Source of the DNA: Acetivibrio cellulolyticus CD2 | GTDB taxonomy: Bacteria > Bacillota > Clostridia > Acetivibrionales > Acetivibrionaceae | DNA length: 64,000 nt | Assembly: GCF_000179595.2 (NCBI RefSeq) | Contig: NZ_JH556653.1 | Span: 1,299,261 to 1,363,260 of the forward strand | Direction: 5' to 3' | Shown: positions 20,818 to 41,329 of the stretch, piece after piece | Numbering within the stretch: position 1 is the stretch's first letter | Layout: every line of letters begins with the position of its first letter | Notes under the pieces: model-generated | The model's input: only the letters and a program-made list of their open reading frames with translations | The model's database searches: none | What the model was told of the DNA's origin: nothing | Made by a program: the position numbers and the translations under genes

Positions 20818-20940
20818 ATACATACCCCCTGTTTTTAAAATGTTGTTACTAAAACAATTCAGATTTTTTAAGATGCCCTCCCCTTATCAATAATAATTTG
20901 CTCCACTTCAATCAGATTAAATTATATACTATTTCAATAC

Positions 20941-25007: not shown

Positions 25008-26285
25008 TTATTGAGCTTCCAAATACTTTTTCTTGAAACTTCTCAGATATAAGCTTTTCTTTATAGGCTCTTTAACACCAACCTTTTCATCGGAATAAAA
25101 ATTAGCATATCCAATGAGCATATAGAAAACGAACATGCTGGCACTGATATCAAGAAGGTGGTTAAAAGTAAAAATAGCATTTAAGTAAAGTGTAAAATAT
25201 AAGCCCCTTGTATTTTTTACGCCTGCATAAAGTAATGTAACAAAAGATATTAATCCAAACAAACCCATCTCCAAAAATATTTTGAGCTGATCACCATGTA
25301 TGACAGGGAAAGCACTTTTTATATAGTACTTATCAGTCCTTAAAAAATACGTAGTAAATCCAAACCCTCTTTTCAAATTAATCCCACGATCTAGAAGTGA
25401 TGCTAAAAAATCAGTTCTTCCTGAGGTAAAACCATTGATGCTAGTGCCAAAATTTCTGACAAAAAATCCTTCAAGCATATGTGCCGTAGAGCGATAAGCC
25501 AGGAAGTATAAAAACCCAACTACCAATATATTGCCCAAAACCGCTAATATGACAATAGCATTCTTTTTCTTAGAAGTCATTTTGAGCCTCATGAATAACC
25601 AAACTCCAAAAACGCTCATTAGTGCCATAAGAACTTCAAACCTTTTCATAGCAAAGATTGCAAAAATAATACTAACAACAAATTTAAAGTATTTCTTCTC
25701 GAACAAAAAGAACACAGCGAGCATACCAAATACTTGGGAATATTCACATTCATAAGGTGAATAGGATTTTAAGAAGTTAACACTTAAGATACCTGGTATT
25801 GATAACTTTGAAGCAAAACGGATAATAAACATAAGTATATAAATAACCAATATATAATCTATAAGTTTATTGAACTGTTCCTTCTCCAAAATCTTAAGAC
25901 AAACACAAAATATCAACGGACAACACATAAATAACAGCTCAATATATGTTCTCTTAAGTAAAGCTCTCTCAAAAAACACCTGTATTATCATAGAGTACAC
26001 ACCTAAAAAGAGGATAATATAGAAATAATATTTATACCCTTTAGCCGCATGTAATATATCTTTTAACTTTATACCATCTTTACATATTACTAAAAAAGAC
26101 ATGAAAATCACTAAAATAAATGCCCCATATTTAGCATATTTCAGCTTTGCATGCATATCCCCCATTAAAATAGCAGTATGCACTATTAAAAGCTGCACAA
26201 TAACCAATAAGGAATACTTGCTGACTCCACTCTTCGGATTTAAATGGTAGATCCATTTATTCAACCAAATTAGCCCCTTTCTCAT
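25008..26285 (-). CDS. O-antigen ligase/polymerase-like membrane protein (Wzy-type)
   Basis: 425 residues, about ten to twelve membrane helices, with a larger extracytoplasmic loop near 265-310 containing Arg and His residues (NGFTSGRTDF, PVIHGDQLKIFLEMG), as in the Wzy_C/O-antigen ligase superfamily. Probably polymerises or ligates the lipid-linked repeat unit at the outer face of the membrane. AGGAAAGAA precedes the ATG, and the start lies 29 bp inside the flippase gene, so the two are translationally coupled. Last gene of the exopolysaccharide operon. Confidence 0.8.
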   Translation of the reverse strand: MRKGLIWLNKWIYHLNPKSGVSKYSLLVIVQLLIVHTAILMGDMHAKLKYAKYGAFILVIFMSFLVICKDGIKLKDILHAAKGYKYYFYIILFLGVYSMIIQVFFERALLKRTYIELLFMCCPLIFCVCLKILEKEQFNKLIDYILVIYILMFIIRFASKLSIPGILSVNFLKSYSPYECEYSQVFGMLAVFFLFEKKYFKFVVSIIFAIFAMKRFEVLMALMSVFGVWLFMRLKMTSKKKNAIVILAVLGNILVVGFLYFLAYRSTAHMLEGFFVRNFGTSINGFTSGRTDFLASLLDRGINLKRGFGFTTYFLRTDKYYIKSAFPVIHGDQLKIFLEMGLFGLISFVTLLYAGVKNTRGLYFTLYLNAIFTFNHLLDISASMFVFYMLIGYANFYSDEKVGVKEPIKKSLYLRSFKKKYLEAQ

Positions 26286-27648
26286 TTTCTTTCCTCATTG
26301 CACTTAAAGTTCTTACCGTAATTATCGGCAAAACAATCGATAGCAAGAGATTGCTTATAATCAATGATAATATAACACCACTAAGACCTAAGGAAAAATA
26401 ATTAGTCAAAACATAGCTAAGTGGTATGTTCATTACTGCACCTACTATTGTTAAAACAAGCTGAGATTTTAATTTCCCAACTCCATTGCAAAAAGATGTA
26501 AATATTACATTCCAACTTAATTGAATAACATATATGCAATAAAAAATAACATGGGTTAAAGAATAGTCCAACTCTCTTCCAATCCATAAATAAATCAGAA
26601 GCTTCAATGCCAGTGCAATAACAAAAAGGAAAATAGCAATTGGAATTAAAAACTGTATCATTTTTTTAATTGTATTAGATATCCAGTCGACATCTTTTTG
26701 GGCATAGTGATGAGTAAACGCCGACCATAAAGGTGCCGTCACACCAGTAAACAGTATATATACAACCAAAAAAGGTTTGTTTACAATCTGATATACCGAA
26801 ACATATTGGGGTCCTAAAAACTGTGTAATAACTATATTATCTGCTGACATCAGAATCAAAGACGATAACTGAACAAACAAAAAGGTAACTCCAACATTCA
26901 GCAAATCCTTCATATAAACAAACTTTACATTTTTTAATGAAGGGATAATATCACGATACTTCTTTTTAAAAAGATACACGGATAAGAAAATATATGACAG
27001 ATTTGTAGCAACCAAATAGCTCGATGCCAAATAAAAAATACTATTATAGCTGAACCTTTTAATCAGTAATATTGTCGGTATATATAATAAATTAAATATG
27101 AAGGCTCTGAAATCATAAAGAGCAGAGTCATGTTTTGCATACATAACTGCATTTAACAATGAGAAATAGAAAGATAAAAGGAATAACGGAATAGCAATGC
27201 TCATTAAAAACTTAAGTTCTGATCCTATCGTCTTATCTACATTGAAAATTACAGAATAATCAAATAACCTTACTACAAAAAACGAAATAACCATCAATAT
27301 AAATATGAAAATACCAAACAGAACATAAGCAGTACTTACATATTCTTTGGCCTTGACTGAATCATTATTGGCATACGCTTCAGTTAATTTATTTCTAAGA
27401 CCGTTAGATATACCAAGATCAACAACTATAAGCATATTAAATATAGAAAGAATCGTCATCCAAACGCCATATCTTGTCTGATCCAAATAAGGATAGGCTA
27501 ACTTTACTACCAGAAAACCCAAAGCCAAAACAACAAATCTTATAATAGGTGCTATAATTGAATTCTTTTTAACCTTATCCTTAGTAAATATCAGTCCCTT
27601 TACCTTACCAATTACTACCTCATACATTTTGTACTTCTCACCTTTCAA
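26257..27648 (-). CDS. Polysaccharide flippase (Wzx/MATE-like)
   Basis: 463 residues with about 14 predicted membrane helices, the size of Wzx-type lipid-linked oligosaccharide flippases of the MOP superfamily. The N-terminal IIAPIIRFVVLALGFLVVKL and GVWMTILSIFNMLIVVDLGI are characteristic; a conserved GLRNKLTEAYA loop follows the second helix pair. Moves undecaprenyl-linked repeat units outward. It lies between the BY-kinase-like gene and the polymerase gene in one operon. Confidence 0.88.
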   Translation of the reverse strand: MKGEKYKMYEVVIGKVKGLIFTKDKVKKNSIIAPIIRFVVLALGFLVVKLAYPYLDQTRYGVWMTILSIFNMLIVVDLGISNGLRNKLTEAYANNDSVKAKEYVSTAYVLFGIFIFILMVISFFVVRLFDYSVIFNVDKTIGSELKFLMSIAIPLFLLSFYFSLLNAVMYAKHDSALYDFRAFIFNLLYIPTILLIKRFSYNSIFYLASSYLVATNLSYIFLSVYLFKKKYRDIIPSLKNVKFVYMKDLLNVGVTFLFVQLSSLILMSADNIVITQFLGPQYVSVYQIVNKPFLVVYILFTGVTAPLWSAFTHHYAQKDVDWISNTIKKMIQFLIPIAIFLFVIALALKLLIYLWIGRELDYSLTHVIFYCIYVIQLSWNVIFTSFCNGVGKLKSQLVLTIVGAVMNIPLSYVLTNYFSLGLSGVILSLIISNLLLSIVLPIITVRTLSAMRKENEKGANLVE

Positions 27649-27687: not shown

Positions 27688-28314
27688 TTAAGTTCTTAAA
27701 ATTGCACCGATAATATTCGCATTTACACTTTGAAGAAGTGATTTGGTTTCCAATACTTCTCCTGCACGACTCTTAGCTGCAACCACCATAATAACCCCAT
27801 CTGAAACAGCCGCTAAAACTTGAGCATCTGTATATTTATTTAATGGTGGTGAATCTAGAAATACCATGTCAAACTCATCCAAGCATTTGTCTAAAAAATC
27901 TTTCATTTCTGAGGATCCTAGAAGCTCTGAAGGATTATCTACAGACGGACCGCTTGTTAAAACCCATAGATTATCTACTTCTGTTTTTCTTGTGCATTCT
28001 GAAATATTCTTCTTTTTTGCAAGTACACTGGTTAATCCCAACTTATTTTCAATTCCAAAAATGTCTGCTATCTTTGGGTTTCTTAAGTCTGAATCTATCA
28101 ACAGTATCTTATTTCCTTCCTTAGCGAAAACAACTGCGAGGTTTGAAACAGTCCCTGTCCTGCCTTCATTTGGGAGTGAACTTGTCACTATAATCTTTCG
28201 AAGTTTTTCATTTGCAAACTTTATATTTGAACGTATCTTACGATACGCTTCTGATGCCATTGAATTAGGGTCATCTTTTGTCACAACCTTAAGGTTTACT
28301 TTTTTATCTGCCAC
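27688..28314 (-). CDS. CpsD/CapB-family tyrosine-kinase-like protein, probably kinase-defective
   Basis: 208 residues. The fold is that of a bacterial tyrosine kinase (BY-kinase) that controls polysaccharide chain length with its Wzz-like partner: EAYRKIRSNIKFA at 22-34, Walker A' LLIDSDLRNPKI at about 71-82 and Walker B FDMVFLDSPP near 150. Two features are missing. The Walker A loop reads SLPNEGRTGT (46-55), with Arg in place of the invariant Lys. The C-terminus stops at NIIGAILRT, without the final helix and Tyr-rich tail that is the autophosphorylation site. It may be a regulator without kinase activity or a decaying gene. Follows the Wzz-like gene by about 70 bp. Confidence 0.85.
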   Translation of the reverse strand: MADKKVNLKVVTKDDPNSMASEAYRKIRSNIKFANEKLRKIIVTSSLPNEGRTGTVSNLAVVFAKEGNKILLIDSDLRNPKIADIFGIENKLGLTSVLAKKKNISECTRKTEVDNLWVLTSGPSVDNPSELLGSSEMKDFLDKCLDEFDMVFLDSPPLNKYTDAQVLAAVSDGVIMVVAAKSRAGEVLETKSLLQSVNANIIGAILRT

Positions 28315-28383: not shown

Positions 28384-29046
28384 TTATCTGCTCACGTTTG
28401 ACACAACACCCAAAACCGGCATTTCTAAAATCATTTTAATATCTTCTGCGGATCTGATTCTATCATCAAAGTACTCAAGTAAGAAAACACATGCGATAGA
28501 TGCTCCAAAACCTAATATAAAACATATTGCAATTAACAATATTAAGCTTCCTCCTACAGGTTTACTCGGAACTACAGCTCTATCAAGTAATTTCAAATTA
28601 TCAGTACTGGAAAATATATTAGCCCGGAGAATCAGAACCTCAGCCATGCTATTAGCAACAATTGCAGCAGCTTGAGGATTTTTGTCTTTCACTTTTATAT
28701 AGATTACCCGTGTACCATATTCCGAAGAAACATTTACCTTCTTTTTGAAATCTTCATAGGTTAAGCTTGAAAACTTTTTTGCAGAATTGTTACTGTCCTG
28801 AGACAGTTTCTTTTGCACTTCATTAACTACAACTTGACTTAAAGCTATTTGGCAATAGTCGTTAACCAGAACTTCTTCGGAAAATGCATCTTCGTTTTCC
28901 AACCCAACGGCATAAACGCTGCTGGATGCTTCATATTTAGACATAGCAAATAGAACCAATCCACCAAGGATAGTGAATGCCAAAGTTACTGCAATTACAA
29001 CATATATCCTTCTAAAAAAAATATTGATATACTCCTTAATTTCCAT
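28384..29046 (-). CDS. Wzz/CpsC/YveK-family chain-length regulator (BY-kinase adaptor)
   Basis: 220 residues. Two membrane helices frame an extracytoplasmic domain: about 13-35 (RRIYVVIAVTLAFTILGGLV) and about 172-195 (LILLIAICFILGFGASIACV). The cytoplasmic tail (EYFDDRIRSAEDIKMILEMPVLGVVSNV) is the segment that normally activates the separate CpsD kinase. A PSKPVGG motif before the second helix is typical of polysaccharide co-polymerases. GGAGG ribosome binding site. Cotranscribed with the FKP-like gene upstream and CpsD downstream. Confidence 0.92.
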   Translation of the reverse strand: MEIKEYINIFFRRIYVVIAVTLAFTILGGLVLFAMSKYEASSSVYAVGLENEDAFSEEVLVNDYCQIALSQVVVNEVQKKLSQDSNNSAKKFSSLTYEDFKKKVNVSSEYGTRVIYIKVKDKNPQAAAIVANSMAEVLILRANIFSSTDNLKLLDRAVVPSKPVGGSLILLIAICFILGFGASIACVFLLEYFDDRIRSAEDIKMILEMPVLGVVSNVSR

Positions 29047-29061
29047 TATATATTTCCTCCA

Positions 29062-32000
29062 TTATAATTCGCTGTTATATATCTCTATATCCCATAACGC
29101 AACCTGTGTATCCTGGAATACCTCACAAAGACTTGTAGATAAAACCTCTTTCTTATCTGCATCTTTTAAAACTCCTATTAAAAATCCTCCGCCTGCTGCT
29201 CCACAAAACATTATTCCTGATAAATATGGCTCACAAACTTTCATGATTAAGTCAATATATGTATTGCTTGAGCCCGCATCAAGTTTTCTGATTTTTTCTC
29301 TATGGATATTCATCAGTTCGGAAAATTTATCTATATTCCCCTTTTCCAATTCGAATTTCATTAGAACAGAAAGCCTTTGAATTTCAACAAGTATTTCTAA
29401 TGCTTCTGGTTCATTAAGTATGTACCTACCCATGATACTTCTTAATATAGACTTTGCAAGTCTTCTCTGACCTGAATAAATAAGTACCAATCTTTGGTTT
29501 AATTCATGCAGAGTCTCTTTAGAAACTACAATTTTCTCCGCTGTAATTTTTTGCTTCAAACCAGGCTTAGTCGAGAGCAATTTAATGCCGGGAATGATTC
29601 CTCCTGCCTGATCCTGCCATCCTCCACCGGTAGTCATTAGCTGTTCAAGTACAAGCACTTGAGAAAAGACCTGCTGGTCATCATGTTGAAGACCCAAAAT
29701 CTCTCTTATAGCCATAACAGCAGCAGATGCTAAAATACTACTGGTTCCGAGACCTGATCCCTTTGGTATCCCAAGAACATTTGTTTCCAATAGCAATCCC
29801 CCACCTAGCGCATCCATCATGTCCCTAAAGCTTCTTCTGGGCAGTTTTTCTTTTCTTGGAAGAACTCCTGTAACAACGAGGGCTGCTTTATGAAGCGCAA
29901 ATGGGTCTGATGGGTCGTCATACCTCAAAAGCTTCTCAAATGAATCAAAATCACGGGTAATGCCTAAATCAATACTTGATAAGCGAATAACCGGTTTGTC
30001 AATCCTTTCAGCCTTAGCCTTGATTGGCAACTTACCACCAATTGTTACAGCGATATTTAGCACCGTCCCTCCGTTTTCCAAGCTGTAGGGAGGAGTGTCT
30101 GACCATTCACCGCCTGTATTCACTCTAACCGGAAGACTAACCACTGCACTATCCTTTACTAATGCTCTGCATCCATCATCTGAAATATCTTCCAACAATG
30201 CTGAGCAGATTGCACTATTAATTTCATCAAAGCACAGGTTTTCAAGTTTTTTAGGATCCATTTCTTCATTTTGAAGCTGCTTTACCTTAGAGACTTCAGC
30301 TAAAGCACGGTAAACTCTGGTTTTGTACTCCATAGGCCAGCTGCTCTCTAAAGTTCTATTCAGAATCATACTCATTCTTCTGGCTATAGCTTCACCAATT
30401 CCCAAGCATCTCATGATATTTCCTACATATGTACCCGAAGTCACTGCATCAATGAAATGAGCTACTGCTGCATTGTCTCCGGAGTTCTGCATAATACTTA
30501 ATATACCAGGAATATCTGCATATGCGAAACTGCTTTGAAGACTCAGCCTTGGCATTTTTTTCCATCGTTCAGTATTAAATGCTTTTCTTAAGATTACCGA
30601 ATCCTGCAAAGCTTGAGCCCAAGAAATTGCTTCACACGCGGTCTTGCAAAACGGGTATAGTTTAGCCTCCCATAAACTCAACGCTTCATTTTCCCACAAA
30701 TCGGCATTCTGAATGTTGTTATCCTTCATCCAATCCAGAAGACCATATCCCATAAGAACTCCGCCACGCCCAGCTTCATTCTTGGGATTATCTTTTGTAC
30801 CGTAAACTCTTGCTGTAAACCCATTCCTACCTTCATAAGTCACAGGCAGTACTTGCCACACCATTTCGGGACCTACTTTAGCTCCCTTTTCAAGTTCACA
30901 ACAAGATACAATAGCTCCCGGATCGATTTTGGCTCCTTCATGAATTACACAATTCTCAATATAGCAATTTGCTCCTATCTCTGAAGCTTTTGATACACAC
31001 GAATTGATTAGCGTAGTTCCATTGATAGCCTTTCCGCTGCTTCCGGTGTTATTATTCCAATTTAAGTGATTTCTTGCTTTACTGGCACCTGTCATTATTT
31101 CTCTAAGCTCATATGTAGTACCAAAGTGAATGAATTCTGCAGGAGATAGCCTTTGTACAACCAGTTTGTGATCTTTCATCTTAGACCAGATTACTCTTCT
31201 GCATTCATCTCTTTCTACTGTTCTAGGTCCTTCACCAGGCTCAAGCAAGTATCCGTCAAAACTTGCCTGCGCTGTCATTGGAATAACAAAATCGGCATAA
31301 AAACTAAGAGCCACCTTGTCATTAACATATGATAAAAATTTAGATTCATCAATACCTGATGAATCATCACAAATCAGGCCTAAAAGCGACAAAACAATTT
31401 CTGAAGAAAGCCAGAAAGTCCCAGTATCAATATCAACACTTCCTACTGCGTTCACTGCTCCTTCACTTCTCAACCTTTCGACCGGATACTTATGCAAAAA
31501 CTTCTGCACCCTGCCTTTTTGATCAACACAAAATACGCCATGATTTGTTCCCTGGTTTGCATAGGCTTTAGTTGACAGTGCTACTGCACCTTCCCTTATG
31601 AAATCAGCCTGCATATGGTTAAATAGTATTAGAATATCACCTGCTGCCAATACCATTCCGGATTGCATTCTGGTTGGAAGGCCTGAAAATGCAATCAACA
31701 ATTCATCGAATAACGTTGAAAGCCTGCCGTCAGGAAGTTCCCTTGGAACAGGTGAAAACAGTTTTCCAATAGCAGAGTACTGCGGAACTCTCTTACTATC
31801 ACCACCTGAATGAATAAGTAGTATTCTCAGTTTTTCAACTGCATGAACATCCATATTTTCCAGCTTATATATTTCTTTTAAAACATTAAGTGTCGCTCCT
31901 CCACTTCCAACCCGTTTGCCATCTGGGTCAGACAATACAATACATTTTGTTTTCTCTGGCAAAACACCATTCTTCTGGCGTTCATCTATTTGAATACGAT

Positions 32001-32157
32001 ATGCTTGTGCTTGACGTTCATTAGACGCAGTGATTACAATATAATCCCAACACTCCGCCTCACAATTAATGCTATCAACATATTTATCCCAATTATCCAG
32101 ATAGCTCTGTTGTATAAAGAGCCTGTTTATATCTTCTACATTATAGGTCTTATTCAC
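29062..32157 (-). CDS. FKP-like bifunctional sugar kinase / sugar-1-phosphate guanylyltransferase
   Basis: 1031 residues from a GTG start (32157; AGGGGGAAA upstream). The N-terminal half is an L-fucose-1-P guanylyltransferase-type domain: ITASNERQAQAYRIQI, DPDGKRVGSGGATLNVLKEI, SGGDSKRVPQYSAIGKLF. A left-handed beta-helix region follows (about 370-430). The C-terminal third is a GHMP kinase (GIPKGSGLGTSSILASAAVM, TTGGGWQDQAGGI). The combination is that of Bacteroides FKP, which makes GDP-L-fucose from fucose and is also known to accept D-arabinose. The neighbours (KdsD-like isomerase, HAD phosphatase, UGM-like mutase) favour a pentose substrate over fucose salvage; heptose is another option. 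Cytoplasmic, EPS precursor supply. Confidence 0.9.
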   Translation of the reverse strand: MNKTYNVEDINRLFIQQSYLDNWDKYVDSINCEAECWDYIVITASNERQAQAYRIQIDERQKNGVLPEKTKCIVLSDPDGKRVGSGGATLNVLKEIYKLENMDVHAVEKLRILLIHSGGDSKRVPQYSAIGKLFSPVPRELPDGRLSTLFDELLIAFSGLPTRMQSGMVLAAGDILILFNHMQADFIREGAVALSTKAYANQGTNHGVFCVDQKGRVQKFLHKYPVERLRSEGAVNAVGSVDIDTGTFWLSSEIVLSLLGLICDDSSGIDESKFLSYVNDKVALSFYADFVIPMTAQASFDGYLLEPGEGPRTVERDECRRVIWSKMKDHKLVVQRLSPAEFIHFGTTYELREIMTGASKARNHLNWNNNTGSSGKAINGTTLINSCVSKASEIGANCYIENCVIHEGAKIDPGAIVSCCELEKGAKVGPEMVWQVLPVTYEGRNGFTARVYGTKDNPKNEAGRGGVLMGYGLLDWMKDNNIQNADLWENEALSLWEAKLYPFCKTACEAISWAQALQDSVILRKAFNTERWKKMPRLSLQSSFAYADIPGILSIMQNSGDNAAVAHFIDAVTSGTYVGNIMRCLGIGEAIARRMSMILNRTLESSWPMEYKTRVYRALAEVSKVKQLQNEEMDPKKLENLCFDEINSAICSALLEDISDDGCRALVKDSAVVSLPVRVNTGGEWSDTPPYSLENGGTVLNIAVTIGGKLPIKAKAERIDKPVIRLSSIDLGITRDFDSFEKLLRYDDPSDPFALHKAALVVTGVLPRKEKLPRRSFRDMMDALGGGLLLETNVLGIPKGSGLGTSSILASAAVMAIREILGLQHDDQQVFSQVLVLEQLMTTGGGWQDQAGGIIPGIKLLSTKPGLKQKITAEKIVVSKETLHELNQRLVLIYSGQRRLAKSILRSIMGRYILNEPEALEILVEIQRLSVLMKFELEKGNIDKFSELMNIHREKIRKLDAGSSNTYIDLIMKVCEPYLSGIMFCGAAGGGFLIGVLKDADKKEVLSTSLCEVFQDTQVALWDIEIYNSEL

Positions 32158-32209
32158 CTGATAATTTCCCCCTAAAAATCTTTTATATATACGTGCATTT
32201 TTAATACGA

Positions 32210-32830
32210 TCATACTTTTACTTCATCATCTCGTAATATGCCAAGCATTCCGCCTGGGTGCCACTTAACATATTGGCTTGGCGTAAGCCCCTTACTGCAC
32301 TGCAGCAAAACAGACAATGCCTGAAGTACAATAATTTCAGCCAAAATGGAAGCTCTTGGTGCTCTATTTAACGGACCACCCTCTTCACTGACTCCTGCAT
32401 ATAAGAAGGCATCACTTACCTTAGCTATCCATGAATCTTTTTTCCCGCTAACTCCTATAATATATGCTCCATTATTTTTCACTGTCATAACAGTGCTCTT
32501 TAACTCAGCAGTTTCACCGCTATTTGAAATAGCTATTACTACATCTCCAGGAACTACCTGTCCGGCAGAACCGTGAACTGCTTCCGTTCCATGTAAAGTA
32601 TATGCAGGGGTGCCTGTTGATGATAATAATGAAGAAATATAACCGGAAACATGTCCTGGTTTTCCAATCCCCGTTACATGCACTCTTCCGCCTTTTCTCT
32701 CAGAATCCTGAATTATATGTAAAGCATGAAAAAAATCTTCAACTTTCAAGCTTTTACAAAAACCGTTAATTTCTCTACCAATAACCTCAATAAAATCTTC
32801 AAAATCACTTTGATAAAAGTTAACACTCAT
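32210..32830 (-). CDS. SIS-domain phosphosugar isomerase, KdsD-like (arabinose 5-phosphate isomerase type)
   Basis: 206 residues: a single SIS domain without the C-terminal CBS pair of full KdsD. Family signatures are strong: VTGIGKPGHV, STGTPAYTLHGTEAVHG, GDVVIAISNSGETAEL and WHPGGMLG. KdsD/GutQ enzymes interconvert ribulose 5-phosphate and arabinose 5-phosphate. The Gram-positive setting has no KDO, so arabinose 5-phosphate would serve another purpose, probably the FKP-like enzyme next door. A hexulose-phosphate or sedoheptulose-phosphate isomerase (GmhA-like) role is possible but the motifs fit KdsD better. Confidence 0.88.
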   Translation of the reverse strand: MSVNFYQSDFEDFIEVIGREINGFCKSLKVEDFFHALHIIQDSERKGGRVHVTGIGKPGHVSGYISSLLSSTGTPAYTLHGTEAVHGSAGQVVPGDVVIAISNSGETAELKSTVMTVKNNGAYIIGVSGKKDSWIAKVSDAFLYAGVSEEGGPLNRAPRASILAEIIVLQALSVLLQCSKGLTPSQYVKWHPGGMLGILRDDEVKV

Positions 32831-32845
32831 AACTATTTGACCCCT

Positions 32846-33655
32846 TTAATTACTCTTAATGAAGAGCTGTTCAATCACATGGGCAACTCCACACTCGTCA
32901 TTTGATAGCGTTATAAAATTTGCTTTCTTTCTTACTTCCAGAGGTGCATTTCCCATTGCAACCCCGACACCTGCCCATTCCAGCATTGGTAAATCGTTGA
33001 ATCCGTCACCGCATGCAACAACTTCTTCTCGTGATATTCCCAGGCTTTCAGCAACTATTGAAATAGCATCAGCTTTTGAAACTCCCTCAGGATGGATCTC
33101 CAAATAATGCGGTTTTGAAAATACAGTTTCAATATGCGCGTCTAAAGCATCTAACTTCTCCTTTAGCGTAACAAGATGACTGTGCTCACCTGCAATTAAA
33201 AATTTGTCAACACCTTTTGAGAATTCATACTTTAGTACATTATCCAGATTTCCAACAAATTCTGGCTCAATTCCTAAAAGGCCCATTTCAAACTCCGTTA
33301 TACTATCCTTAGCTCTTACAGCCCATCTGTCACCACTAAAAACAGTGATGTGATCACACCCAACTGTGGATGCAGTTAAATAGATATTTATGGCACACTC
33401 ATAAGATATCTTCTTTTGGAATAACACCTCATTTCCTTTAGTTATGTATGACCCTCCAAATGCTACAAGAGGATTTTGGTGTATTCCCAGTTCTTCTACT
33501 AACCCACCCATTCCTACCGCCGGTCTGGCAGAGGCAAGTACAACAGGAACACCTTCGTCTGCAATTTGCTTAATCATCTTCCTGTTACTTTCAGGTATTT
33601 TAAGTTGACTATCGATCAGTGTTCCATCAACATCAAGACAAATCATTTTGTACAT
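32846..33655 (-). CDS. Cof-type HAD-IIB sugar phosphatase
   Basis: 269 residues from the ATG at 33655, chosen because GGAG lies 9 bases upstream and the HAD motif I starts at once (MICLDVDGTLID). Motif II is VVLASAR, motif III contains the conserved Lys before DAISIVAESLG, and motif IV is CGDGFNDLPMLEWAGVGVAM. The C2B cap is present. Cof-type enzymes remove phosphate from sugar phosphates. Position 15 bp before the SIS gene suggests it dephosphorylates the isomerase product to supply free sugar to the FKP-like kinase. Confidence 0.88.
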   Translation of the reverse strand: MYKMICLDVDGTLIDSQLKIPESNRKMIKQIADEGVPVVLASARPAVGMGGLVEELGIHQNPLVAFGGSYITKGNEVLFQKKISYECAINIYLTASTVGCDHITVFSGDRWAVRAKDSITEFEMGLLGIEPEFVGNLDNVLKYEFSKGVDKFLIAGEHSHLVTLKEKLDALDAHIETVFSKPHYLEIHPEGVSKADAISIVAESLGISREEVVACGDGFNDLPMLEWAGVGVAMGNAPLEVRKKANFITLSNDECGVAHVIEQLFIKSN

Positions 33656-34232
33656 TTTTTTAATCTCCATTTTTAAAATAGTATTAATCACCCATAAGAC
33701 TCTCAACTGTTAACCAAATAGACAGTGTCAGTATTACGACTCCGTTACCATAACTTACCACACCAAATTTGCATACCTATACCTTACCATAGCTTACGCA
33801 CTAATAGACTAACCACCTATCCAAGCTATATAAGCACTGCAAATTATTCTATTCGGTTTACATTTTTGAGTAGACATCACCAGTGGACTAACTGCGATGA
33901 GACACATATAATGAAGAGTATTAGTTTTTAAAGCTTTTTAATAGTTGAAATAAATCTTTCTATAAGTCTTGGTTATTACCAGAATATTTATTCTTTTCTA
34001 TTCTCTTGCTTTACTTCTTCCTCAGTACTATATTTCTGCACTCACAAATTGTCCCCTAGCAAAAAATCACATACACTGATATCTTTATATAGTATTCTCT
34101 AAATTATGTATTTTCTTGTTTTAATGACACAATAGTAAATAAGCCACACATTTATGCTTTATTTACGTTTAATGTCAATACATTATATCAGGTAATTTCT
34201 GTTTATTCAACAAAATTATGCTACTTATTTTA
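33656..34232. other. 577-bp intergenic region inside the EPS locus
   Basis: AT-rich spacer between the UGM-like gene and the HAD gene, both minus strand. No convincing ORF; a 15-codon GTG frame near 34035 is not supported. The size suggests a separate promoter for the HAD-SIS-FKP-Wzz-CpsD-Wzx-Wzy part. Confidence 0.5.
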
Positions 34233-35441
34233 TTAAATTCTTTCACTCATCTTCATCGCTAAATCAACAGTTACATCAGAGTTATAATGCTGATGTTCTC
34301 CCCAACGACCCAAACCGTATACACCCTGTCCTTCACTCCAGTCAAGCAGTTTCTTCATAATATCCGGCTTTCCAATTGTATTCAGAGGATACGAATACTG
34401 GTTCAGATAGTGGTAATTATTTTGCTCCTCTGCCGTAAACATATGGACACGTTCTTTTCTTGTTTCCGTCCAGTAACCCTTACTATTCGGGCAGAAGTTG
34501 CGACGAACCATAATTCTATGATATGCCAGGTTTGGATCAGGATAATAAATCCATTGAGCTGTCGTATCAAGATTTTGGCTAAAGTAGCGCATCTCAACAG
34601 AACTAAACTTCAATTTACCAATACCTTCCTTGATGTCATCAGGCATTCCTATAATTTCATTAAATTCCATCCATGGAATTGTGGTAACAATAATGTCTGC
34701 ACTATATTTCCCACCATCTTGGGTAGTTACTGTTTTAGTACTGAAGTTGATACCTTTTACAGACTTGTTGTATTCAATATTGCTACCTAATGCTTTACCC
34801 ATTCTAAGCCAAAGTTCTCCATAACCATACTTTTTCGGATAATAAAACTTGGCATGTCCAGGCTGAGTGCCATAAGCACGTTTAGTTAGACAACTAAGGA
34901 GTGTTTCTTCAAAGCTAACGCTCGGAAGCTTTTCAAGCCAATATGTACCTAGTTCAGTCAGTTCGTTGGCAAACATCTTCTGGTTATATGGGATCATATA
35001 ATCATGAGCAATTTTACTGCCGAGTTTCCAATATATCCAATCCACAAAAGCTTCAGGCATTGGAGTTCCAGTATTACAACCAGCCACTGCTATAGCTTTA
35101 AGATATTCAACCTGATCTTCCAATTTCATCTGCCAAATATTTGCCTCAATCGGGCTGTTGATTGTATTTCCATTTACCACTATACGGCTGTCACGTTCAT
35201 ACCTGTCCCATTCTTCTTCTGGCATAAACTTAAACAAAAATTCGTTAACATGCGGACGAACAACATCAAGAAAGTGCCCACCACCAATATCAAATGGAGA
35301 ACCATCCACATCGACAGAACGACAAAGTCCACCTGCTTCAGACTCACGTTCAAGGACTAGAAAATCAGTCTCTCCACGCATTTTCAACTTGTTAGCAAAT
35401 GTAAGTCCGGCAGGACCGGCTCCCAATATTAAATATTTCAT
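34233..35441 (-). CDS. UDP-galactopyranose-mutase-like FAD-dependent protein
   Basis: 402 residues. The N-terminal Rossmann FAD motif is MKYLILGAGPAGLTFANKL, followed by a second motif ERESEAGGLCRSVDVDGSPF and DIGGGHFL. The C-terminus closes the FAD site (QGVYGLGRWGEHQH). The order and NQKMFANELTELGTYWL segment resemble UGM-type flavoproteins that interconvert pyranose and furanose forms of nucleotide sugars; related amine-oxidase/protoporphyrinogen-oxidase-like proteins are the alternative. It overlaps the upstream GT4 gene by 4 bp (ATGA), so the two are translationally coupled. A mutase that works on the FKP-like enzyme's GDP-sugar is the attractive hypothesis. Confidence 0.82.
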   Translation of the reverse strand: MKYLILGAGPAGLTFANKLKMRGETDFLVLERESEAGGLCRSVDVDGSPFDIGGGHFLDVVRPHVNEFLFKFMPEEEWDRYERDSRIVVNGNTINSPIEANIWQMKLEDQVEYLKAIAVAGCNTGTPMPEAFVDWIYWKLGSKIAHDYMIPYNQKMFANELTELGTYWLEKLPSVSFEETLLSCLTKRAYGTQPGHAKFYYPKKYGYGELWLRMGKALGSNIEYNKSVKGINFSTKTVTTQDGGKYSADIIVTTIPWMEFNEIIGMPDDIKEGIGKLKFSSVEMRYFSQNLDTTAQWIYYPDPNLAYHRIMVRRNFCPNSKGYWTETRKERVHMFTAEEQNNYHYLNQYSYPLNTIGKPDIMKKLLDWSEGQGVYGLGRWGEHQHYNSDVTVDLAMKMSERI

Positions 35442-36535
35442 TTAGTTTCCTCCAATATCTTTTTATACTTCTGCAATAACTCTCTACAATTTGTCTTTAT
35501 ATCAAAATGAGCGTCTTTAATTTGCTGCTCTACATAGCCTTTCCTTCCACTTCTATCCAGACCGTCCACAGAGTTTATAACTGTCTCCGCCCACTTCGCA
35601 TCATCCGCTTCCAGTTCAACAAACTTCACGAGATCGGTGATGGCAGTCATAGGTGAAATTGTATTGCTTAAAATGCATGGAAGACCCGCTGCCTGAGCCT
35701 CTACAATTCCAAGGGGTAAACCTTCAAACAGTGACGGAAAAACCATAACATCCATTGCCTGGAGCCAGCATTCCACTTCATCACTAAGACCAACAAACAA
35801 TACATCCAATTTTTTATTTCTCACTTCAGCCTCGATTTCATCTCTTAGCTCACCGGCACCAATTAGAACCAGCTTTGCATCAGACCGAACTTTAGAAACA
35901 GCATCAAAAACTGAAATAAGTTTTTTATGATTCTTCTGCTCACTAAACCTGCCTACATGTCCAATGACAAACTTGTTTTCCAGATCATACTTCTTTCTGA
36001 ACTGTTCTCGTACTTCACTGTTGTATCCAAACTTTTCAAGGTCAATCCCATTTGAAATCACATCAAACGGTTTACCGGAAAAGAGCCATTCCCCAGCTTC
36101 CTGACCACAGGCAAAACCATTTGTATAGAGTTTCATAAAAAATGGTCTGAGTAATTTATCCACCTTCACATGGTCGCAAGTCGTATTATGACTATGCGGA
36201 ATTCTCACTTTTACCCCAGCCAGTTTTGCCGCAAGCATTTCAACAAACATTGTACAGCTGCAGCCATGGACATGAACTATTTGGTATCCATTGTCTTTAA
36301 TTATTCTGCGCAGTTTCTTAACGTAGCTTATAGGCTTTCTGTTCCTGTATTCAATTACAAAATTACGACCTCCGCTTTTATCAAGTTCCTTTTTAAACTT
36401 CTCATTAACGGGATTGATGCTTACAACATCCATCTTAATCTCTTTATGATCCTGGTATATATAATAGTTTGTTGCTACATTTGAAATTCCGTCATACCCG
36501 AATATGGTCGGAACTATTACTAAAACTTTCAACAT
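35438..36535 (-). CDS. Glycosyltransferase family 4 (GT-B fold)
   Basis: 365 residues from the ATG at 36535 (GGGGG six bases upstream), not the longer frame at 36613. GT-B signatures: N-terminal VLVIVPTIFGYDGISNV, central IPHSHNTTCDHVK, and in the C-terminal domain VIGHVGRFSEQKNHKKLI and FPSLFEGLPLGIVEAQAAGL (EX7E-like nucleotide site). Cytoplasmic, transfers a sugar from a nucleotide donor onto a lipid-linked acceptor. The overlap with the UGM-like gene suggests it uses the furanose donor made there, which is inference. Confidence 0.92.
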   Translation of the reverse strand: MLKVLVIVPTIFGYDGISNVATNYYIYQDHKEIKMDVVSINPVNEKFKKELDKSGGRNFVIEYRNRKPISYVKKLRRIIKDNGYQIVHVHGCSCTMFVEMLAAKLAGVKVRIPHSHNTTCDHVKVDKLLRPFFMKLYTNGFACGQEAGEWLFSGKPFDVISNGIDLEKFGYNSEVREQFRKKYDLENKFVIGHVGRFSEQKNHKKLISVFDAVSKVRSDAKLVLIGAGELRDEIEAEVRNKKLDVLFVGLSDEVECWLQAMDVMVFPSLFEGLPLGIVEAQAAGLPCILSNTISPMTAITDLVKFVELEADDAKWAETVINSVDGLDRSGRKGYVEQQIKDAHFDIKTNCRELLQKYKKILEETK

Positions 36536-36560
36536 ATTTATCCCCCGATGTGCAAAACAG

Positions 36561-37367
36561 CTATATTCTTCCGGCCGCCTTTTCTTCATTTCTAAACTTT
36601 CTATAATAACCAAATATCTTTATATCCTCTACAAAATACCTCTTGTACATTCTCTTTGGATCCTGCAAAAACCTGTGGAACCATTCAAGCCCCATATCGC
36701 TCATCCACTTAGGCGCCCTTTTAAAGCTTTCACCGATAAAATCCAAAGCAGCACCCATGGAAAAAGAAACAGGAATCTGATACTTGTCCATATTCTCATA
36801 AATAAATATATCTTGCTTTGGAGAGCCCATACCAACATAGAGCTGGTCTGCGCCTGATTCAAGTAACATTGTATTTATCTTATTCATTTCAGCAGCATCT
36901 TTTTCAAATCCAAAAGGCGGAGAATATGTACCAACAACCTGCAATCCAGGGTAAGCCCTTTCCAAATTTAGAGCAGCCTGAGCAGCTACTCCAGGTCCAG
37001 CACCTAAAAGAAATATTTTATGTCCTTTCCTGGCAGCCTGCTCACATAATAAGAGCATAAGATCCGGACCCGAAACCTTTTCAACAATTTCTCTTTTTAA
37101 ACGTTTTGCCATCCACAAAATAGGTTTACCATCAGTAAACACAAGTTCAGCTTCCCTGAATATCTTTTTAGAATACTCATTCTCAATAACACGAAGTGCC
37201 TGATCTACATTAACACCAACAATCTGGCAAGGTGTCCGTCTTTCAACACACATGTCCACATGTGCAATAATCTCCTGGGCAGTCATATTATTAATCTGTA
37301 TACCTAATAGATTTACAATCTTTTTATTATCTACTTTTTTTAATTCTTTCAACTCACTATTACTCAT
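36561..37367 (-). CDS. WecG/TagA/CpsF family glycosyltransferase (GT26)
   Basis: 268 residues. GT26 signatures: VNVDQALRVIEN, FTDGKPILWMAKRL, SGPDLM, FLLGAGPGVAAQAA, VGMGSPKQDIFIYEN, AALDFIGESFKRAPKWM and GLEWFHRFLQDPKRMYKRY. Members add ManNAc or a related sugar to a polyprenyl-linked first sugar. The initiating phosphoglycosyltransferase is not in the window. First gene of this minus-strand block, with AAAGGA before its ATG. Confidence 0.94.
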   Translation of the reverse strand: MSNSELKELKKVDNKKIVNLLGIQINNMTAQEIIAHVDMCVERRTPCQIVGVNVDQALRVIENEYSKKIFREAELVFTDGKPILWMAKRLKREIVEKVSGPDLMLLLCEQAARKGHKIFLLGAGPGVAAQAALNLERAYPGLQVVGTYSPPFGFEKDAAEMNKINTMLLESGADQLYVGMGSPKQDIFIYENMDKYQIPVSFSMGAALDFIGESFKRAPKWMSDMGLEWFHRFLQDPKRMYKRYFVEDIKIFGYYRKFRNEEKAAGRI

Positions 37368-38446: not shown

Positions 38447-38454
38447 TTGGAAGA

Positions 38455-38530
38455 GAACACTAAATGTGGTGAAAGTCGCACACCATTTTTAATTATTATT
38501 TGTGTCGCCTGCGACAGCGGCGGAATGGAG
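38455..38530 (+). promoter_or_regulatory. Structured, GC-richer 5' leader of the glycosidase gene (unknown class)
   Basis: Directly before the ribosome binding site the DNA becomes GC-rich and self-complementary: GTCGCACA (from 38475) can pair with TGTG and TGCGAC (38504-38515), and GTCGCC/TGCGAC forms an alternative. A GGTGAAAGTC box precedes it. Alternative pairings next to the ribosome binding site are typical of translational control, but no known riboswitch class matches well. Confidence 0.35.
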
Positions 38531-38539
38531 AATTATTTT

Positions 38540-41329
38540 ATGAAAATGCGTTTGGGTTCAAATTTTAAAAGGGTTTTGGCGGTAGTATTCTGCATCGCTG
38601 TATTTTTTCTATGCTATCATGGGATTTACGGAAACTTTATATATAATGAAAAAACTGCAGCAACAGATTTGACCTCGAATACAGTAGTTCCTTCGTCAAC
38701 ACCTTTAGCAACACCAACATGCAGAGTACTTGTGATTGATGATTCTGAAAACAACTCCGAATGGTATAGCTTTAATGGAAGTGGAGCTTCTGTTACTAAG
38801 GAAATCGTCGATAACGGCAGCAATAAAAGCCTGAAGATAACCTTCACCAACAGTTCCGGAAGTTACTGGGGAGTAAATAAAAATATAAGCTCTGACTGGA
38901 AACAATGGGCTTCTATTTCTTTCAAACTCAAGTCTATATCAAAATCCAAACTTAAATTTAAAGTTGTAGAACTTGGAAAAGATGGAAGTAGCGAAGGTGA
39001 ATCCTGGGTTTACAGTTTTGATACTAAAGACTCTTGGGAAACAATAGAAATCCCATTTTCCTTCTTTATAAAGGACCCTTATTATCAGCCTGTAGGACAA
39101 GACAACAACAACACTTTAGACCTTGGAAAGATCCGTAGTATAAATATTGAAAACGGAGACTTCAGTGTAGGAAGCTTTGAATTGGATGATCTTACATTAA
39201 AAAGTATAACAACTGTTACACCGGTTCCTACGCCAACGCCAGTTTCCACACCAACGCCGGTTCCTACAGCAACACCGATTCCTACAGCAACACCGGTTCC
39301 TTCACCTACAATAGATCCCAATACCCTTATGAGTATTTCAGGCTATGTATCGCTGAATGTTAACTCTGAAATTAAAGAACTAAACTCAGGAATTACTGTG
39401 AAGCTTGAAAATACAGGATACTCTTCAACTACTGATTCCAATGGTTATTTTATTATGAATAATGTACCGAAGAGCATAATCAATTATAACCTTTGTTTTT
39501 CAAAACACGGAATTCTTGAGCGTAAAATAAATATACCTGCATATAAAGACCAGGTAATTGGAACAGCAGATGAACCAATACTTCTATGGGCAGGTGACAT
39601 GCCTGAGGATGGAAAAACTGATGGCGTTATCAATATGGTCGATGTAGTTCAAATTGCAAAAGTTTTGAATGCAACTGCTGGAAGTGATAAATACAAGTCT
39701 TATATGGATATAAACTTAGATAAAGCTATAAATATAGAAGATATTATGATTTTAGCTAAAAGGTTTAATCGCAACACAGGCGACTATGAAGAATATAAGA
39801 ACGATGTAAACGTCTTTGCATTTTCACAGGGTCCTACATATGCTAAAGATCCTCAGGTTCTCTCACTTAAGCCTGATATGGTAATTCGCGGTTGGCAAAA
39901 ATGGAAGACTACAGGAACAGTACCTACTGATTATAACTTCAAATATGTTAATGAATGTCATAAAAATGGTACTCTGTTCATTGGCGGTGCAACTGCTTCA
40001 GTACTGTATAAGGATGAAGCGTCTTCAAATGAGCAGTTTCTTGATTGGGCTACAAGGGATTCAGAAAACAAATTGGTGCTCCATGATGATACTTTCTATA
40101 GAGCATCAATGGCAAATCCTTCTTATAGGCAATATTTGATTAACATAGGAAAGATGCAGATAGACGGCGGAGTAGATGGACTTTTCTTTGATGAAGCTGA
40201 TGGAGCCTATAGAGGTCCTGGTTGGGACTTGAACGAGGGTTATGATGACTATTTCTGCAAGGACTTTAATAAGTACTTGATGGAGAAATATCCTGACTAC
40301 ACAAAAGAAGATTGGATAAACAAATTTGGAATGGCTGAAGATAATGTTATAAAAAAGGATGTTCCCTATGATGACTTGAATAATAATTTCAATTATCGTA
40401 AGTACCTTGCTGCTAATAAATGGACCCAATCACCTTTTAACTCGTTAAATCCTTTGGCAAATGAATGGGGAAAACAAACTCAAAACCGCCCCCAAATAGG
40501 AGATGAAAATTTTACTGCAAAATATATGATGTTATACTGGCACGAAATAGTGGATACTTTGAAAACCTATGCAAAAACCAAATACAATAAGGATATATAT
40601 ATAACCTCCAATGGTATATACCCATATGTAGATTTTCAGAGTATAGGGCTATATACTGGAAATGACGATGATAATGGTAAAGAAGTGAATTACGTACCGA
40701 CATTAGCTGGGGAACTTAATGGTAGAGCCTCTCTTATTCCTTATTACCTCGACCTAAAACAAAAAAGCGAAAAAGTTGCCGGTGATGTTCCTGTTGTATT
40801 ATTTTTGGATTGGCCTTGTAAAATGATGGATAGTTATTATGCCTTATCCTCAGAAGACAAAATAGACTTTTGGAGGATTTATGGAGCAGAGAGCTATGCC
40901 TGTGGAACTCCAATGTCTTTCCACCTTAAAACAACCATATCTACTGAACCTACGGCTTTGACATCCGGAATCTTAAACTTCCTAACTGACTATTCCGGAT
41001 TCTATAAGAAAAATGCCAGCTTATACACAGGATTCAAGCCAATAAAAACAAATGCAGAGATATCGTTACCTGGCATAAGCTCAGTAGTTACCGAAAATAA
41101 AAAAGAAGAACAAACATGTATACATTTGATAAATCATAATTATGTAGATATAATGCTTCCTCAAAACAACTTTGAAGTAGTAATACCTTTTGAACAAGAA
41201 CCAGAAAAAGTAGAAATGTTTTCACCGGACTTATCACAGAGTAGTATTCCATATTATACCTATAGTAACGGCCAACTCAAAATAAAAGTTGATTCCCTTG
41301 AATACTACAATATAATAAAGATTCAATAA
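38540..41329 (+). CDS. Secreted glycosidase-like protein with N-terminal CBM-like domain and internal X-module + type II-like dockerin
   Basis: 929 residues from the ATG at 38540 (GGAG 9 bases upstream). Signal anchor or peptide at about 8-28. A beta-sandwich CBM11-like domain (about 60-225, VIDDSENNSEWYSFNGSG), a Thr/Pro linker (225-260), and an X-module (264-350, ISGYVSLNVN.. TTDSNGYFIMNNVP) run into a dockerin (350-415: WAGDMPEDGKTDG.INMVDVV, then DINLDKAINIEDIMILAKRF). The arrangement resembles the X-dockerin II dyad at the C-terminus of CipA-type scaffoldins. Residues 420-835 form a TIM-barrel hydrolase-like domain with GVDGLFFDEADGA (probable catalytic acidic residues) and VVLFLDWP; a beta domain ends the protein. 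GH family not assigned. Single gene with its own terminator. Confidence 0.85.
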   Translation: MKMRLGSNFKRVLAVVFCIAVFFLCYHGIYGNFIYNEKTAATDLTSNTVVPSSTPLATPTCRVLVIDDSENNSEWYSFNGSGASVTKEIVDNGSNKSLKITFTNSSGSYWGVNKNISSDWKQWASISFKLKSISKSKLKFKVVELGKDGSSEGESWVYSFDTKDSWETIEIPFSFFIKDPYYQPVGQDNNNTLDLGKIRSINIENGDFSVGSFELDDLTLKSITTVTPVPTPTPVSTPTPVPTATPIPTATPVPSPTIDPNTLMSISGYVSLNVNSEIKELNSGITVKLENTGYSSTTDSNGYFIMNNVPKSIINYNLCFSKHGILERKINIPAYKDQVIGTADEPILLWAGDMPEDGKTDGVINMVDVVQIAKVLNATAGSDKYKSYMDINLDKAINIEDIMILAKRFNRNTGDYEEYKNDVNVFAFSQGPTYAKDPQVLSLKPDMVIRGWQKWKTTGTVPTDYNFKYVNECHKNGTLFIGGATASVLYKDEASSNEQFLDWATRDSENKLVLHDDTFYRASMANPSYRQYLINIGKMQIDGGVDGLFFDEADGAYRGPGWDLNEGYDDYFCKDFNKYLMEKYPDYTKEDWINKFGMAEDNVIKKDVPYDDLNNNFNYRKYLAANKWTQSPFNSLNPLANEWGKQTQNRPQIGDENFTAKYMMLYWHEIVDTLKTYAKTKYNKDIYITSNGIYPYVDFQSIGLYTGNDDDNGKEVNYVPTLAGELNGRASLIPYYLDLKQKSEKVAGDVPVVLFLDWPCKMMDSYYALSSEDKIDFWRIYGAESYACGTPMSFHLKTTISTEPTALTSGILNFLTDYSGFYKKNASLYTGFKPIKTNAEISLPGISSVVTENKKEEQTCIHLINHNYVDIMLPQNNFEVVIPFEQEPEKVEMFSPDLSQSSIPYYTYSNGQLKIKVDSLEYYNIIKIQ

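Follow-up and report, generated by a model that had tools for sequence, protein, structure and literature searches.

A possible route to GDP-D-arabinofuranose encoded in an exopolysaccharide locus of Acetivibrio cellulolyticus CD2

Genes of the candidate pathway

The window analyzed here is a stretch of 64,000 nucleotides from the cellulose-degrading clostridium Acetivibrio cellulolyticus CD2 (contig NZ_JH556653.1, positions 1,299,261 to 1,363,260), the genome of which comprises 6.16 Mb in 10 contigs. It carries an exopolysaccharide (EPS) locus in which four genes could together provide GDP-D-arabinofuranose (GDP-D-Araf) from ribulose 5-phosphate. These genes encode a flavoprotein resembling UDP-galactopyranose (UDP-Galp) mutase (UGM), a haloacid dehalogenase (HAD)-type phosphatase, a SIS-domain isomerase, and an FKP-like enzyme, and all four are open, intact, and on the minus strand. 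The UGM-like protein (34233..35441, minus strand) is a candidate nucleoside diphosphate (NDP)-pyranose/furanose mutase in which the residues that would contact the nucleotide and the sugar are altered. The HAD protein (32846..33655, minus strand) is a Cof-type HAD-IIB sugar phosphatase (TIGR00099, 194 bits; cut-off, 137). The SIS protein (32210..32830, minus strand) is a sugar isomerase of the KpsF/KdsD/GutQ type that consists of the SIS domain only and is a candidate arabinose-5-phosphate isomerase, and the FKP-like protein (29062..32157, minus strand) is a bifunctional sugar-1-kinase/GDP-sugar pyrophosphorylase. These family assignments (Cof HAD, KdsD-like SIS, FKP, and UGM-like), which an original prediction had made from the letters of the DNA, are supported by Pfam, by NCBIfam, and by the best solved relatives.

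The HAD, SIS, and FKP genes are consecutive, as had been predicted, with spacings of 15 nt (HAD-SIS) and 52 nt (SIS-FKP). The UGM-like gene does lie upstream of this trio, but it is not adjacent to the HAD gene, from which it is separated by a noncoding stretch of 577 bp (33656..34232). No plausible open reading frame (ORF), terminator, or Rfam match was found in this gap, and promoter-like matches occur in it at about chance level. The HAD ORF begins with a TTG (33706); the ATG at 33655, which has a GGAG upstream, is most likely the start. On its other side, the UGM-like gene shares 4 nt (an ATGA overlap) with the gene for a GT4 glycosyltransferase (35438..36613, minus strand; PF00534, 87 bits), a putative user of the furanose donor. 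The overlap bears out the predicted translational coupling of these two genes.

UGM-like flavoprotein

The best solved relative of the UGM-like protein is the UDP-Galp mutase of Aspergillus fumigatus (AfUGM), with E values of 9e-29 by phmmer and 7e-42 in a profile search of the PDB. The protein lacks the Pfam GLF domain (PF03275), which matches nothing in its own genome. Its AlphaFold2 model (pLDDT, 90.8) gives Z-scores of 38.7 with Trypanosoma cruzi UGM, 35.5 with AfUGM, and about 30 with bacterial UGM, compared with 28.1 for protoporphyrinogen oxidase and 25.5 for monoamine oxidase, and a Foldseek search returned an E value of 1e-30 for UGM versus 3e-20 for the first non-UGM. The model thus places the protein on the pyranose-furanose mutase side of the fold and not with the amine oxidases. 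A grouping with non-mutase amine oxidases, which had been named beforehand as the outcome that would speak against a UGM-type enzyme, was not seen; an amine oxidase identity is ruled out by fold and profile.

In samples comprising 398 genomes from the phylum and 299 from one Lachnospiraceae-like family, close orthologs (53 to 77% identity) were present in 17 genomes besides A. cellulolyticus, and the plasmid collection contained no close UGM-like relatives. In a phylogenetic tree, the UGM-like subfamily forms one clade (100/100), with the window protein next to that of genome G914. Nineteen aligned UGM-like sequences were compared with AfUGM at the positions of its published contact list (PMC3624792). 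H56, N153, Y299, R309, Y351, and N387, equivalent to AfUGM His63, Asn163, Tyr317, Arg327, Tyr419, and Asn457, are invariant in all 19, as are P97, E99, F157, K171, H196, and H385. E99 replaces Gln107, which forms a hydrogen bond with the uracil; F157 replaces Trp167; K171 and H385 replace Arg182 and Tyr453, both of which contact the diphosphate; and H196 replaces Asn207, which contacts the galactose. In addition, S96 stands in place of Tyr104, which stacks on the uracil, and nearly all of the sequences have Ser or His at this position. By the A. fumigatus numbering, a complete absence of Arg182 is ruled out, the position being held by Lys. The mutase frame is therefore kept while the base and sugar contacts are consistently changed, which speaks for a donor that is not UDP-Galp. 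A Glu at position 99 instead of Gln would be compatible with guanine; however, since most of the orthologs have no adjoining FKP gene, Glu99 alone is not readable as a GDP signature.

SIS isomerase and HAD phosphatase

The SIS protein (206 aa) scores 124 bits with the KpsF/GutQ model, 118 with KdsD, and 105 with GutQ (NCBIfam), compared with 42 bits for the next best other family, 39 for HxlB (hexuloisomerase), and 18 for GmhA. Its score of 123.9 bits is below the curated NCBIfam cut-off of 203.7, and the models extend C-terminally beyond the SIS domain. The best PDB relatives are 5uqi (E value, 3e-28), which is a SIS domain alone, and Escherichia coli KdsD, 2xhz (E value, 9e-25). K57, H80, E106, E149/E150, and H191 align with both structures, and they correspond to KdsD Lys59, His88, Glu111, Glu152, and His193, which we take to be the catalytic residues. 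The protein looks like a KpsF/KdsD arabinose-5-phosphate isomerase rather than GmhA or HxlB, in line with the KdsD-like enzyme that had been predicted. In the plasmid collection, the nearest SIS relatives (L102, L103, and L104) are found in operons with an ascorbate-type phosphotransferase system (PTS), a DapA-like lyase, and a 2-keto-3-deoxy-6-phosphogluconate (KDPG) aldolase, pointing to a sugar catabolic route that is apparently uncharacterized.

The host had been described as free of 3-deoxy-D-manno-octulosonic acid (KDO), and this is supported by the genome, in which KDO 8-phosphate (KDO8P) synthase was not found. Two matches to the KDO8P synthase model score about 125 bits, far below its cut-off of 314, and are presumably 3-deoxy-D-arabino-heptulosonate 7-phosphate (DAHP) synthases. 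KDO is thus not the sink for arabinose 5-phosphate, and a KDO route was set aside. The HAD protein has the DVDGT, SAR, K, and GDGFND motifs that are typical of Cof-type HAD proteins, and its gene position suggests that it may act as an arabinose-5-phosphate phosphatase.

FKP-like enzyme

The FKP-like protein combines a Fucose_pyrophosphorylase domain (PF07959, 297 bits; cut-off, 34) and a GHMP_kinases_N domain (PF00288, 36 bits) in a single chain, and it matches Bacteroides fragilis FKP with an E value of 6e-73. It scores below the NCBIfam equivalog PRK13412 (505.6 versus 721 bits), the architecture being the same and the sequence divergent. Equivalents of B. fragilis FKP G76, R80, and K89 in the GTP site and R592, D601, and D762 in the kinase are retained, and both active sites are predicted to be intact. 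The GTP-binding residues and the kinase Arg and two Asp residues of FKP have been discussed previously (PMC12732313). The substrates of FKP enzymes must have the L-fuco/D-arabino configuration, and D-arabinose is converted by these enzymes to GDP-D-arabinose (PMC11982464), and the T. xiamenensis enzyme turns over D-arabinose faster than L-fucose (PMC12732313).

A phylogenetic tree was built from the N-terminal 330 residues of the window FKP and 33 other clostridial FKPs. The window protein forms a lone branch (length, 2.25) apart from all of the others; since the tree was rooted at its midpoint for display, it shows this isolation only and not its direction. The sampled relatives of the same family yielded no FKP, and acquisition of the gene is therefore probable. 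The plasmid collection contained no close FKP relatives.

Surrounding genes

On the minus strand, the order of the genes is TagA, GT4, UGM-like, the 577-bp gap, HAD, SIS, FKP, Wzz, BY-kinase, flippase, and polytopic protein. The first of these encodes a WecG/TagA/CpsF (GT26) glycosyltransferase (36561..37367, minus strand), with 187 bits to PF03808 and 128 bits to TIGR00696 (cut-off, 69). Only 15 nt separate the FKP gene from the next gene of its operon, which encodes a Wzz-type chain-length protein (28384..29046, minus strand; PF02706, 30.5 bits; cut-off, 25.5) and is followed by genes for a BY-kinase, or polysaccharide tyrosine autokinase (27688..28314, minus strand; TIGR01007, 174 bits; cut-off, 108), and a Wzx/MATE-type flippase (26257..27648, minus strand; PF01943 and PF01554, both above cut-off). 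The polytopic protein (25008..26285, minus strand) has no family match and, by operon position and hydrophobicity only, is a probable polymerase/ligase.

Beside the locus, a divergent gene (38447-41329) encodes a possible cellulosomal glycosidase, in which a carbohydrate-binding module (CBM11) and a dockerin are accompanied by a C-terminal region that matches nothing in Pfam. Elsewhere in the window (15571-20823), a secreted protein of 1750 aa contains PA14, CBM6, Thr-Pro linkers, and CBM3, with an N-terminal HEYGH motif that is metallopeptidase-like.

Gene neighborhoods in other genomes

The search for the SIS-HAD-FKP trio and for the four-gene set covered 20 named FKP loci (with flanks of up to 10 kb, some shortened by contig ends), 15 further FKP loci, and the 17 close mutase orthologs. 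The original prediction had suggested looking for the same four genes in other genomes; in the loci covered, only the UGM-FKP pair recurs, once, in G914. This genome carries the nearest UGM-like ortholog (77%), and its FKP gene starts 46 nt downstream and is cut by the contig end; the locus is of the EPS type, with a flippase and a GT4 enzyme. Additional relatives of G914 yielded nothing new on the four-gene set.

At the other ortholog loci are genes for GT2 enzymes similar to polyprenyl-phosphate sugar synthases, for polytopic enzymes, or for a GDP-mannose-dehydratase-like short-chain dehydrogenase/reductase (SDR). The polytopic enzymes give weak NCBIfam hints, far below cut-off, that include the arabinofuranosyltransferase AftB. 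Five of the orthologs (L129:5378-9924, L132:8661-11567, L139:6348-9272, L133:1078-4758, and L138:6470-9358) are encoded in short operons with GtrB-like GT2 and polytopic GT-C-like enzymes, accompanied in three cases by the GDP-mannose-dehydratase-like SDR, and a flavin mutase may there supply furanose units for transfer outside the cytoplasm. A sister UGM-like homolog (31% identity) is found at L144:3569-11743 with GtrA, a GT2 enzyme, RmlD-like and GDP-mannose-dehydratase-like SDRs, an HddA-like kinase, and a GmhA-like isomerase. The L144 locus, which also has glucose-1-phosphate cytidylyltransferase and CDP-glucose dehydratase-like genes, is a candidate deoxyheptofuranose system.

Proposed pathway and alternative explanations

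In the proposed pathway, the SIS protein would convert D-ribulose 5-phosphate to D-arabinose 5-phosphate, from which the Cof-type HAD protein would strip the phosphate to yield D-arabinose. The C-terminal kinase of the FKP-like enzyme would form D-arabinose 1-phosphate, and its N-terminal domain, with GTP, would form GDP-D-arabinopyranose (GDP-D-Arap). The UGM-like flavoprotein, with reduced FAD, would then contract the ring via a flavin N5 adduct to give GDP-D-Araf, and the coupled GT4 enzyme would add D-Araf to a lipid-linked unit started by TagA. The flippase, chain-length, and polymerase genes would export this unit and polymerize it into a small extracellular polysaccharide. Sequence and structure comparisons provide the enzyme families, the conserved catalytic residues, the gene arrangement, and the mutase fold from which this scheme is built. 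From them we infer the substrates of all of the enzymes, the order of the steps, the GDP specificity of the fourth step, and the polymer. That the locus makes the full chain from ribulose 5-phosphate through arabinose 5-phosphate, D-arabinose, and GDP-D-Arap to GDP-D-Araf is a tentative reading, to which we give slightly less than an even chance.

The main logical support for GDP-D-Araf is a convergence at GT4. TagA and GT4 are the only glycosyltransferases in the locus. TagA-type enzymes act early, with UDP-ManNAc or a similar donor, so that the FKP product and that of the coupled mutase would both fall to GT4. If the locus is self-contained, these products are one nucleotide sugar, and they probably meet at GT4; a glycosyltransferase elsewhere in the genome would break this argument. 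The GDP-Araf pathway of the original prediction is strengthened by the SIS type, the FKP active sites, the mutase fold, and the loss of the uracil contacts, and it is weakened by the failure to find the four-gene set elsewhere. The close packing of HAD, SIS, and FKP, the isolated position of the window FKP in its tree, the lack of KDO8P synthase and GH29 fucosidase genes, and the FKP gene beside the nearest UGM-like ortholog also speak for it.

A number of observations count against this pathway. Neither the trio nor the four-gene set occurs in the loci searched elsewhere, and no KdsD-like SIS gene was found in G914, where the FKP gene is cut by the contig end. Of the 17 sampled genomes in which a close ortholog is present, 16 have no FKP gene next to the mutase gene, which is accompanied there by GT2, GT-C, or dehydratase-like genes. 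A link to GDP-arabinose therefore does not hold for the mutase family in its entirety. The FKPs of the window and G914 are not close kin in the FKP tree, which leaves shared inheritance of UGM and FKP unsupported and indicates that the pairing arose twice or that one partner was replaced; its presence in two EPS loci could be chance. The nearest SIS relatives (54 to 61%, from the plasmid collection) lie in catabolic-looking Gram-positive PTS/KDPG-aldolase operons, so a catabolic ancestry of the SIS protein is possible, and a Cof-type HAD sequence does not predict the substrate. AfUGM Arg182Lys retains only 10% activity (PMC3893270), and the window protein naturally has Lys at this position. 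B. fragilis FKP has a Km of 34 μM for L-fucose versus 2450 μM for D-arabinose, an approximately 70-fold preference for L-fucose (PMC11982464).

The missing FKP neighbors and the 577 bp between the UGM-like and HAD-SIS-FKP blocks would fit a locus with two donors, in which GDP-D-Arap from the SIS, HAD, and FKP-like enzymes is used as such and the UGM-like enzyme makes an unrelated furanose, such as UDP-galactofuranose (UDP-Galf) or another NDP-furanose. Galactofuranose occurs in the cellulosome glycans of related clostridia, and since the genome has no canonical GLF-type UGM, any Galf would need the UGM-like protein. We consider this explanation unlikely, given that the 19 orthologs share fixed replacements of the residues contacting uracil and galactose, that the UGM-FKP adjacency recurs in G914, and that only one glycosyltransferase in the locus is free for the product or products. 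Clearly less probable is a route in which the FKP-like enzyme salvages L-fucose to GDP-L-fucose, from which the UGM-like protein may give GDP-L-fucofuranose (GDP-L-Fucf), with SIS and HAD serving otherwise. It would leave the SIS and HAD genes, packed directly against FKP, unexplained; GH29 fucosidase was not found in the genome, and the locus has no recognizable GDP-fucose synthesis gene or fucosyltransferase. Nevertheless, the FKP family is best known for L-fucose, the Km values of the B. fragilis enzyme favor this sugar, and some clostridial FKP relatives adjoin fucose-type genes (L043, beside GDP-fucose genes) or a probable glycyl-radical/microcompartment locus (L186). Bacterial GDP-L-Fucf also exists and is made by GT75 mutases (PMC9937993).

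It is also improbable, slightly more so than the L-fucose route, that the UGM-like subfamily acts on a lipid-linked sugar or another non-GDP donor while the locus independently employs GDP-D-Arap or some other sugar. The diphosphate contacts point in both directions, two of them being changed (Arg182 to Lys and Tyr453 to His) and three (Tyr317, Arg327, and Tyr419) being invariant. Several orthologs are encoded beside GtrB-like GT2 and GT-C-like enzymes, and the sister homolog at L144 beside GtrA, GT2, and dehydratase genes, but the partners in the window and G914 are GT4 and Wzx-type genes, not GT-C or GtrA. Finally, another sugar might be the product of SIS and HAD, or their substrate might be the phosphate of a hexulose or heptulose, along a GDP-heptose-like route. 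The PTS-KDPG aldolase operons of the nearest SIS relatives, where such substrates may be used, speak for this. The alternative is very unlikely: the SIS protein is not GmhA-like (18 versus 124 bits), the HAD protein is of the Cof type and not the GmhB type, and B. fragilis FKP does not accept sugars that lack the L-fuco/D-arabino configuration (PMC11982464). In addition, a separate heptose-type cluster lies elsewhere in the same genome (L101:7719-10580), with an HddA-like kinase (283 bits), an HddC-like nucleotidyltransferase (176 bits), a GmhA-like SIS protein, and a GmhB-like HAD protein; it likely directs GDP-D-glycero-D-manno-heptose synthesis in a Gram-positive bacterium. The GDP-heptose alternative thus fits less well, as had been anticipated.

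Significance and comparison with known systems

If GDP-D-Araf is made by this locus, it would be the donor of a second, Leloir-type route to bacterial D-Araf, it would extend the flavin mutases from the UDP and CDP donors described in the papers covered here to GDP, and it would explain why a KDO-free cell has an arabinose-5-phosphate isomerase. The donor and enzymes would be useful for making arabinofuranosides, and both the donor and the specificity would be new, from known enzyme families. The broader claim is that this is the first route to nucleotide-linked D-arabinofuranose (GDP-D-Araf), which would be built de novo from ribulose 5-phosphate, and that its flavin-type pyranose-furanose mutase is the first to be specific for a GDP-sugar, all in a KDO-free Gram-positive bacterium. 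This claim is slightly more doubtful than the pathway itself. GDP-D-arabinofuranose is named in no paper found in the open-licence literature, which is weak evidence.

Known bacterial D-Araf is derived from phosphoribosyl pyrophosphate (PRPP) via polyprenyl-phosphate ribose and DprE epimerization, and in a 2024 survey this machinery was present in every case in which pentofuranose side chains could be matched to genomes (PMC11127046). These three-component systems (PPPRS, DprE1/E2, and GT-C) likewise bring D-pentofuranoses into bacterial glycans, but they begin with PRPP on polyprenyl phosphate and use no nucleotide sugar (PMC11127046). PPPRS, a DprE-type epimerase, and GT-C are all absent from the family matches of the operon, to which this search was confined. 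The trypanosomatid GDP-D-Arap pathway (Leishmania AFKP80) shares an FKP-type enzyme that converts free D-arabinose to GDP-D-Arap (PMC11301363, PMC3347535); it differs in that no KdsD-type isomerase was found there and the sugar is used as the pyranose, with no mutase.

The eukaryote-type UGMs of A. fumigatus and T. cruzi resemble the window protein in fold (Z-scores, 35 to 39), in the FAD-binding motif, and in the equivalents of His63, Tyr317, Arg327, Tyr419, Asn163, and Asn457, whereas they differ at Tyr104, Gln107, Arg182, Asn207, and Tyr453, which become Ser, Glu, Lys, His, and His, respectively. The arabinose-5-phosphate isomerase of the Gram-positive Clostridium tetani is an example of such an enzyme outside KDO synthesis, and the solved relative 5uqi has only the SIS domain, like the window protein. 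The gene context of the C. tetani isomerase is presumably sugar utilization and not polysaccharide synthesis, in contrast to the window locus. This isomerase is known here through its citation within PMC11301363. The GT75 GDP-pyranose mutases MtdL and Hyg20 likewise yield GDP-furanoses (GDP-L-Galf and GDP-L-Fucf) in bacteria (PMC9937993), but they are Mn dependent, with a GT-A-like fold and no flavin, and are unrelated to the UGM-like protein. The CDP-fucofuranose mutase HS41.17 of Campylobacter jejuni is, like the enzyme proposed here, a flavin mutase that acts on a non-UDP donor, CDP (PMC12369002); it uses another nucleotide and another sugar.

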